Origin: Lineolata rhizophorae
Taxonomy: Eukaryota > Ascomycota > Dothideomycetes > Lineolatales > Lineolataceae
Assembly (NCBI GenBank): GCA_010093515.1
Contig: MU001683.1
Location: forward strand, 910,422 to 974,421
Length of the DNA stretch: 64,000 nucleotides
Direction of reading: 5' to 3'
The position numbers and the translations under genes are program-made. Position 1 is the stretch's first letter. Each line of letters starts with the position of its first letter. Under the pieces are notes generated by a model. It did no database searches and was not told where the DNA came from. It was given only the letters and a program-made list of their open reading frames with translations. Below are positions 11,359-13,883 of this stretch, one piece after another.

Positions 11359-13883
11359 TCAAAAGTGGCCCCCCTCCACCGCCTTCCCCTCCCCATTAAC
11401 CACCCCATTAACCATCCCCCTCGCCGCCAACCCCCCACCCACCCCCTCTACCACTTCCCTCGTGACTGCCTCCAAGCACCCGCTCGCTGCCGCCACGAGC
11501 CCGAGGTACGGCCTGCTCGGATCGAGCACGCGCGACAGGTACTCGGGGTGGAACTGGACGCCGACGAAGTAAGGATGGTGGCGGAGCTCGACGACCTCCA
11601 TGCGGGCGCCCGACTCGTCGCGGCCGACGAAGGCGAGCGCGCCGTCCGCGGCTGCCTCGAGCCGCGCCACCAGCTCCGGGTTGATCTCATAGCGGTGACG
11701 GTGGCGCTCCAGCACGGCGTGCGTGGCCGTGCCGCCGTAAAGCGCCCGGAGCCGGCTCCACTCGCTTCCCGGCTGGAAGCGCGTCGCGCGCCGCCCGAGC
11801 CGCATGGTGCCGCCCATGGCCAGCTTGTCGATCTCGGGCATGAAGACGACGGCGTGGCGCTCCGGGGGGCTGCCCGCCGGCGCGAACTCCTCCGACGTGG
11901 CGCCCTCGAGCCCGGCCAGGTGGCGGGCCGCCTCGATGACGGCCACTTGCATGCCCAGGCACACGCCCAGGTAGGGCGCGCCTTTTTCGCGCGCCCACCG
12001 CGCTGCCGCGATCATGCCCTCGGTCCCGCGCGCCCCGAACCCGCCGGGCACCAGGATCCCGTGCGCCGTGCTCACGTCGTGCCACGCCTTGTAGTACCGC
12101 GCCGGGTCGCGGTCGCGCGTCGGCGCCTCGAGCGCCTCCGAGTCGATCCACACCAGGTTCAGCCGCCGCCGGCACCGCATCGCGCTGTGTTCGAGAGCCT
12201 TAATGACGCTAAGATACGAGTCGTGGAACTCGGTGTACTTGCCGACGAGGGCGATGTCGACGTTGTGGAATTTGTGTTCGTCGAGCGTCGCCGTCAGGGA
12301 CTGCCATTGGGCCCAGATGCGCGCGCCCTTGGTGACGAGGGCCGGGTCGAGTTTCACGCCGTCGAGGTGCAAGATGTCCTTCAGCAAGGGGACCAGCCCC
12401 TGGTCTTCCAGAAGGACGGGAACCTGGTAGATGGACGGCATGTCTCGGACCACCACCACTTGTTCGACGTCGACTTGGCAAAAATGCGCAATTTTTTCGA
12501 CCGTCGAGGGTTCGAGCGGGCGCTCGCATCGGCATGCAATCTAGCGCGGCACGGTTCGTGTTAGCTTCCTACGTTGTACCACATGAGAAATTGGTGGAAT
12601 ATGGAGGGGTGGGATCGCAATGACGTGCTGGGTGGCTACAGCGTCCACAAATATTCCCCCACCCCGCCGGCTGCGCCCCACCCGTCCATACCCTTTGCCG
12701 AAACCACAAAAAGAAGATCGGCAAGACGAAAAAGAAGCAAAGTATCGAAATTCCCGATGCGTACCAGGTCGGGAAGCAAACCCGCGCTACGCACGCCGCG
12801 GATAGCCTGCTGCGTCGGCTTCGTCTTCTGCTCGCCGTGGATGATGGGAATGTACGAGACGTGGATCTGGAGGAAGTTGTTGCGGCCAGCACGACGGCGC
12901 AGCTGGGTGAGGGCCTCGACGAAAGGCATGCTCTCGATGTCGCCGACGGTACCGCCGAGCTCGATGATACAAACGTCGGGCTCCTCACCGGTGTCGTCGA
13001 CCGGCACCTTCGCAACGCGCTCAACCCAGTCCTGGATCGCGTCCGTGATGTGCGGCACCACCTGAACGGTGCGGCCTAGGTAGTCGCCGTGCCGCTCCCG
13101 CTCGATGACGTGCTTGTAGATCTTGCCCGTCGTGATATTGTTCTCGCTCGTCAGCGTCACGTTCAGGTACCGCTCGTAGTTTCCCAGGTCGAGGTCCACT
13201 TCACCGCCGTCGTTAAGGACGAAGACCTCCCCATGTCTGCGAGGGCGGGGGGGCCAATGGCGCCGCGCGGAAATTCCGCGCGGCGCCGAAGCAGCGGTCA
13301 GCCGGGTCGGTGGAGATCTAGTGCGTATACTCCGTGGAACGTGCCGATGCAGGAAGAGAAGAGGTGGGTGGCGGGCAGGGGTTCGAGGCGCACACATACT
13401 CCTTGGGGTTCATAGTCCCGGCGTCGACATTCAGGTACGGGTCGATCTTGATGGACGAGACGTGCGGAGCTTGTCAGCATGCGCCGCGTCGAGTTGTACG
13501 CATATGCAGCCTTGGCAGCGAAGGGGAGAAGAGCAAGGAACGAAAAAAAATATAGATATACAAAATAAAAACTCTATACGGGTCAATCGGGTAGCAACTT
13601 ATCTTCAAGCCAATCGTCTTGAGCAGCAGGCCCGTCGACGAGGCTAAGACGCGCGAAGAGTCAGCCATTGCGCTGCTGCGGGACGCGTCGCCGCGTAGCC
13701 CATCATCTTTGCACTCTTCCCGTACCGATGATGCCTTTGCCGACGCCGCTAATCACACCTAGACGGGAACAAAACGAGGCGGTGTTAGCTCTCTCAAACG
13801 GCTAGTGGCGGCAGGGGGACAGGCCCAAAGAAATAAGAAAATTCCCCGCAATGCGCACCTCCGGAGACCAGAACGTATTTCAT
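11359..13883 (-). CDS. URA7: CTP synthase (glutamine-hydrolysing)
   Basis: It converts UTP, ATP and glutamine to CTP, the last step of pyrimidine nucleotide synthesis. Six exons in transcript order: 13883-13859, 13758-13726, 13643-13603, 13461-13400, 13236-12765 and 12540-11359 (604 aa, the usual fungal length). The N-terminus [19 protein letters not shown] gives the synthase P-loop. [38 protein letters not shown] and [13 protein letters not shown] are conserved amidoligase blocks. The glutaminase half has GVCLGMQ (Cys near 406) and FHPEY (His/Glu near 543). Introns 1, 2, 4 and 5 are GT-AG. Intron 3 (13462-13602) reads AT-AC and is listed separately. It is an essential metabolic enzyme that may form filaments, as CTP synthases generally do. 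Confidence 0.96.
13462..13602 (-). other. AT-AC intron (intron 3 of CTP synthase)
   Basis: On the minus strand the exon ends GGCTTGAAG and the intron starts ATAAGTTGCT; it ends CATGCTGACAAGCTCCGCAC before GTCTCGTCC. Removing exactly these 141 bases yields [12 protein letters not shown], matching the family with no gap. The 5' site is the common GTAAGT with A at position 1, so it is U2-like rather than the U12 type ATATCCTT. A branch-like TGCTGAC lies about 13 nt before the terminal AC. The intron carries an in-frame TGA, so retention would truncate the protein. A GT-AG alternative exists (GTTGCT to ACAAG) but inserts four residues and puts the branch A only about 4 nt from the AG. Confidence 0.78.

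Follow-up and report, generated by a model that had tools for sequence, protein, structure and literature searches.

A probable U2-type AT-AC intron in the CTP synthase gene of Lineolata rhizophorae

The minus strand of the window (the whole 64,000-nt stretch of Lineolata rhizophorae DNA analysed here) carries a CTP synthase gene at positions 13883–11359, whose six exons, the last of which includes the stop codon, encode 604 amino acids (Table 1). The product contains a CTP_synth_N domain and resembles solved CTP synthases over nearly its full length, which identifies it as a member of the PyrG/Ura7 family. A search of the 31-Mb genome with this protein returned this gene alone, and the 604 codons are otherwise open along the whole length of the gene. 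Introns 1, 2, 4, and 5 have GT-AG ends. Intron 3 is the exception: it reads ATAAGT ... TGCTGACAAGCTCCGCAC and is 141 nt (3 × 47) long. Intron 4 contains a perfect 29-nt hairpin (window 13259–13287; 14 pairs and one unpaired middle base) between its sole GCTRAC and the 3′ splice site; folding would bring the branch A, which lies 61 nt from the intron end, closer to that site. Viral contigs scanned for relatives of exon 5 gave two pattern matches, neither of which was a relative.

Table 1. Features of the CTP synthase gene (window positions) and U2 snRNA matches elsewhere in the genome
Feature	Location	Strand	Remarks
CTP synthase exon 1	13859..13883	-	ATG at 13883; MKYVLVSGG aligned from residue 1 with PDB CTP synthases
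CTP synthase exon 2	13726..13758	-	
CTP synthase exon 3	13603..13643	-	ends ...GGCTTGAAG (GLK)
CTP synthase intron 3	13462..13602	-	141 nt, AT-AC, U2-type signals
Intron 3 5′ splice site ATAAGT	13597..13602	-	AAG/ATAAGT (/, exon–intron boundary) pairs 8/9 with own U1
Intron 3 branch-site motif TGCTGAC	13473..13479	-	branch A 13474; contains TGA, the in-frame stop on retention
Intron 3 3′ splice site CAC	13462..13464	-	
Exon-4-like repeat GATTGACCCGTA in intron 3	13577..13588	-	11/12 identical to 13436–13447, exact register
Exon 4 counterpart of repeat, GATCGACCCGTA	13436..13447	-	codes for part of KIDPY
CTP synthase exon 4	13400..13461	-	
CTP synthase exon 5	12765..13236	-	
CTP synthase exon 6	11359..12540	-	includes stop TGA, 11361–11359
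GAAGUA-box U2	L005–L009, L047, L048		contigs 8 and 13
GUAGUA-box U2	L002–L004, L044–L046, L049, L050		
Degenerate U2-like copies	L050:1–188 (GUAGUA), L051:1–197 (GCAAUA)		48.2 bits each

We enumerated the cuts between exon 3 and exon 4 that would leave an intron of at least 30 nt, allowing 12 dinucleotide classes, and scored the products against a CTP synthase segment from a PDB alignment. The AT-AC cut 13602–13462 ranked first among 165 stop-free in-frame products (323 versus 312 for the next) and was the only one to give the family sequence at the exact family length. Among the rows shown, three further 141-nt cuts, including an AT-AG and a GT-TG pair, preserved the length and altered conserved residues; one length-preserving alternative of 141 nt yields KTIAPHVSS. 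The best GT-AG cut, 13598–13470, scored 312 and inserts four residues, ITPH, between GLK and VSSIK. Scores of three isoforms against CTP_synth_N were 400.1 bits for the AT-AC product, 392.0 for the product with ITPH, and 393.4 for one with ISCYP. On sequence grounds, the advantage of the AT-AC cut over its GT-AG rival thus appears modest though real (323 versus 312, and 8 Pfam bits), and in the three PDB alignments shown the AT-AC junction is free of gaps. A preliminary description of this DNA had placed the intron at these coordinates, with an ATAAGT start, a CAC end, and a TGCTGAC motif, all of which the minus-strand sequence confirmed. Its statements that only the AT-AC cut gives both the exact length and sequence of the family and that a GT-AG alternative would add four residues were borne out by the enumeration. 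Protein conservation accordingly assigns AT and AC ends to the intron, as in U2-type AT-AC (type II) introns.

We then compared the splicing signals of intron 3 with the snRNAs of the genome. All nine positions of AAG/ATAAGT except +1 pair with the U1 arm of this genome (8 of 9), against 5 of 9 for each of the four GT donors of the gene. The arm used for pairing, ATACTTACCTTG, is found in six of seven U1 matches; the seventh reads ATACTTACCTCG, with C at position 11, and by reading would form 7 of 9 pairs with the ATAAGT donor. All seven matches begin ATACTTACCT and fall under the Rfam gathering score (best 65.1 versus 69.5), and none of the seven has the U at position 8 that would pair with A at +1. 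Pairing with U1 cannot by itself prove that A at +1 is used. Consensus strings for scoring were GTAAGT for the U2-type donor, ATATCCTT for the U12-type donor, and TCCTTAAC for the U12-type branch site. The intron 3 donor agrees with the first at 5 of 6 positions versus 4 of 8 for the second, and the intron has a full GCTGAC near its 3′ end, its best match to the U12 branch consensus being 4 of 8. Each of the five introns has exactly one GCTRAC; in introns 1–5, respectively, its branch A stands 26, 17, 12, 61, and 20 nt from the end. The branch motif of intron 3 had been put about 13 nt from the end; the motif itself stood, and its A at 13474 lies 12 nt before the end. RNA folding of intron 3 gave no structure beyond that of shuffled sequences (z 0.28).

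Rfam models for U1 (under its gathering score), U2, U4, U5, and U6 all found matches in the genome. Those for U11, U12, U4atac, and U6atac found none in the genome and also none in any of 14 control genomes; the major snRNA models likewise matched none of the 14, and taken alone the lack of minor snRNA matches is weak evidence of absence. Removal by the minor spliceosome might be suggested by the ends of the intron, as many U12 introns typically have AT-AC ends (PMC7072748), but donor and branch each reach only 4 of 8 positions of the U12 consensus, the minor snRNAs went unmatched, and Ascomycota yielded no convincing minor introns in a survey of more than 3000 genomes (PMC10639083), so that a U12-type intron is most improbable here. 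The donor, the GCTGAC branch, the 8/9 pairing with U1, the poor U12 signals, and that survey instead support the earlier assignment to the U2 type, together with its statement that U12 signals are lacking. Intron 3 is most likely a U2-type AT-AC intron, a kind that is already known.

Three other explanations were weighed. Use of the GT-AG intron 13598–13470, giving an enzyme with ITPH between GLK and VSSIK, would be in frame and stop-free, would have canonical ends, and would cost just 8 Pfam bits. We nevertheless consider it unlikely. Only 4 of 9 positions of its donor, TAA/GTTGCT, pair with the U1 of this genome, as against 8 of 9 for the AT donor; its acceptor AG is 4 nt beyond the branch A in the sole GCTRAC of the intron; and no gap where ITPH would sit is seen in the three PDB alignments shown. 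Slightly less likely again is that the AT and AC ends come from an error in sequencing or assembly, or from a lesion of this strain that disrupts splicing: going from G to A at +1 takes only a transition, but both ends must have changed and have happened upon the one compensating pair, in a gene whose remainder is open and which was the only copy found in the 31-Mb genome. As improbable as the minor spliceosome are a stwintron (an intron nested within another), a microexon flanked by two introns, and an intron whose retention is regulated. In their favor, 288 sequence-similar stwintrons are reported from Hypoxylaceae and Xylariaceae (PMC12403724), and intron 3 is in frame save for one TGA. By hand reasoning, however, a stwintron built of GT-AG units should have an outer G at both ends, where here there are A and C.

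Intron 3 is very probably a genuine AT-AC (type II) intron that is removed by the major spliceosome. U1 would bind AAG/ATAAGT through its 8 of 9 pairs, and U2 would bind GCTGAC, with the A at 13474 as the branch point. In place of the usual G–G, the first A and the last C of the intron would then form a non-Watson–Crick contact, permitting step 2 at CAC. We infer splicing itself and its efficiency on this basis: the very strong U1 match would keep the donor usable and the terminal C would restore step 2. The AG located 4 nt beyond the branch A would be skipped, perhaps because it is too close to that A, and the following AG, within exon 4, would remove VSSIK and give an AT-AG pair. Parker and Siliciano reportedly established the compensation between A at the first and C at the last position, and with it the contact between the first and last intron bases. 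Their work is cited in PMC6726248, which gives AT-AC as the most efficient combination in yeast after GT-AG; that paper reports a single natural AT-AC protointron, and none of the standard introns of yeast normally uses the pair.

Retention of intron 3 would add 42 open codons before a TGA, the A of which is the branch A, and would give a product of 75 residues. This corrects the earlier statement that retention truncates the enzyme near residue 33, which is where the foreign residues begin, 42 codons ahead of the stop. Positions 15–26 of the intron match positions 15–26 of exon 4 at 11 of 12 positions; the two copies lie one intron length apart and IDPY is read in both frames. In a test devised after the match had been noticed, a repeat in exact register arose in 23 and 57 of 200,000 random sequences and one in any register in 91 of 1500, and across the window 22 of 63,938 positions on one strand and 17 on the other scored as high. 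The exact register is therefore unlikely by chance, a match in any register is not, and the repeat is unexplained. The 14 nt before the repeat match at just 4 of 14 positions, which speaks against a simple recent duplication as its origin.

We also surveyed 264 kb (the window and positions 1–200000 of contig 14) ab initio for further AT-AC introns, an approach of low power. The first run gave 0 AT-AC and 8 GT-AG candidates, with a mean of 0.98 for other dinucleotide pairs, and missed the CTP synthase intron. A second survey of the same 264 kb was made at four settings, which gave, for AT-AC, GT-AG, and the mean of other pairs, 14, 42, and 23.8 (setting one), 2, 9, and 2.7 (two), 5, 32, and 10.1 (three), and 2, 8, and 1.25 (four). 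In all four settings the CTP synthase intron was the best-scoring AT-AC candidate, and no clear AT-AC excess was detected in this low-power survey.

The snRNA searches also uncovered variation in U2. All 16 U2 matches in the genome score above the gathering threshold, and their branch-pairing box is GUAGUA in 8, GAAGUA in 7, and GCAAUA in 1; L050 and L051, the two degenerate copies in Table 1, are probably pseudogenes. Stem IIa has 7–8 pairs in five of the GAAGUA copies and 5 pairs in two, with differing sequences, and therefore seems largely preserved through compensating changes; the best stem IIa of the GUAGUA copies has 4 to 8 pairs. By eye, the alignments of the GAAGUA copies retain an Sm-like T run and the 3′ region. 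A divergent second U6-like gene (L041:1501–1605; contig 17:441854–441958) scores 43.6 bits against a gathering score of 44 and is one A shorter between its ACAGAGA and its AGC triad.

By the pairing rules of U2, a GAAGUA box would pair with CTTAC branch sites. We counted four motifs in 107 GT-AG candidates, which are not verified introns, and in 2322 controls. CTTAC was present in 5 of the candidates versus 26 controls (Fisher p 0.01), CTAAC in 12 versus 48 (p 6.8e-6), CTGAC in 8 versus 60 (p 0.009), and CTCAC in 5 versus 54 (p 0.12); a stricter set of 20 candidates contained CTTAC in 2, CTAAC in 4, and CTGAC in 1. The CTTAC excess is suggestive only as a sign of a second U2 specificity. CTTAC is already among the minor branch motifs reported in Fusarium (PMC5677156) and hence requires no variant U2. 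Among the non-subscription papers listed in searches bearing on U2 variants, no title or abstract opening describes GAAGUA-box U2 genes in a fungus. It is unlikely that the AT-AC intron reflects relaxed splice-site choice in a diversified major spliceosome with GUAGUA and GAAGUA U2 and a second U6-like gene; on that reading the exon-4-like repeat near its start would be relic-like, and the intron perhaps born AT-AC by internal duplication. Its branch site fits the normal (GUAGUA) U2 class.

Wu and Krainer are said to have described U2-dependent AT-AC (type II) introns, which have the same ends as intron 3 and the donor and branch signals of the major spliceosome. That work is cited in PMC6726248, and type II is named in PMC7072748 too. 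The present case differs from these in lying in an ascomycete housekeeping gene for which no second copy was found and in being known from sequence alone. A comparable case is the AT-AC protointron of yeast SUT635 (PMC6726248), likewise handled by a major spliceosome in an organism that has no minor one; SUT635, however, is a noncoding RNA in which GT-AG is used alongside, whereas the CTP synthase intron is apparently needed for the enzyme. Filamentous ascomycetes with AT-AC junctions include Fusarium graminearum (PMC3577648) and Trichoderma longibrachiatum (PMC4324775), where the evidence is from transcripts whereas ours is from protein conservation. In T. longibrachiatum, 69 of 14,305 junctions were AT-AC by TopHat, a mapper-based figure (PMC4324775). 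In F. graminearum, AT-AC is one of six rare classes that together make up 0.31% of 2604 introns, and the splice sites of seven genes were Sanger-checked (PMC3577648). At least 42 likely AT-AC introns are reported for C. elegans, which nevertheless seems to be without minor snRNAs (PMC3033335). Of the AT-AC introns counted in PMC7072748, 10.7% (46) are fungal, as are 9.2% (208,522) of the GT-AG introns, from which we derive by arithmetic about 430 AT-AC versus 2.3 million GT-AG introns overall, or near 0.02%. AT-AC introns in fungi are therefore known, rare, and easily misannotated. Our literature search for CTP synthase together with AT-AC, covering papers outside subscription, matched only a maize paper; the AT-AC mentions met in PMC3091305 are polyketide domain names.

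Introns of this kind are not new. With no minor spliceosome detected in the genome, a housekeeping enzyme reliant on AT-AC splicing would nonetheless be a clean natural example of compensation between the first and last intron bases, and the strong match to U1 suggests how the change at +1 is tolerated. Annotation programs that accept only GT-AG or GC-AG introns would break or pad CTP synthase at a conserved strand. Perhaps more interesting than the AT-AC intron are the GAAGUA-box U2 genes, which, if expressed, would give one major spliceosome a second branch-site specificity that is directly testable.
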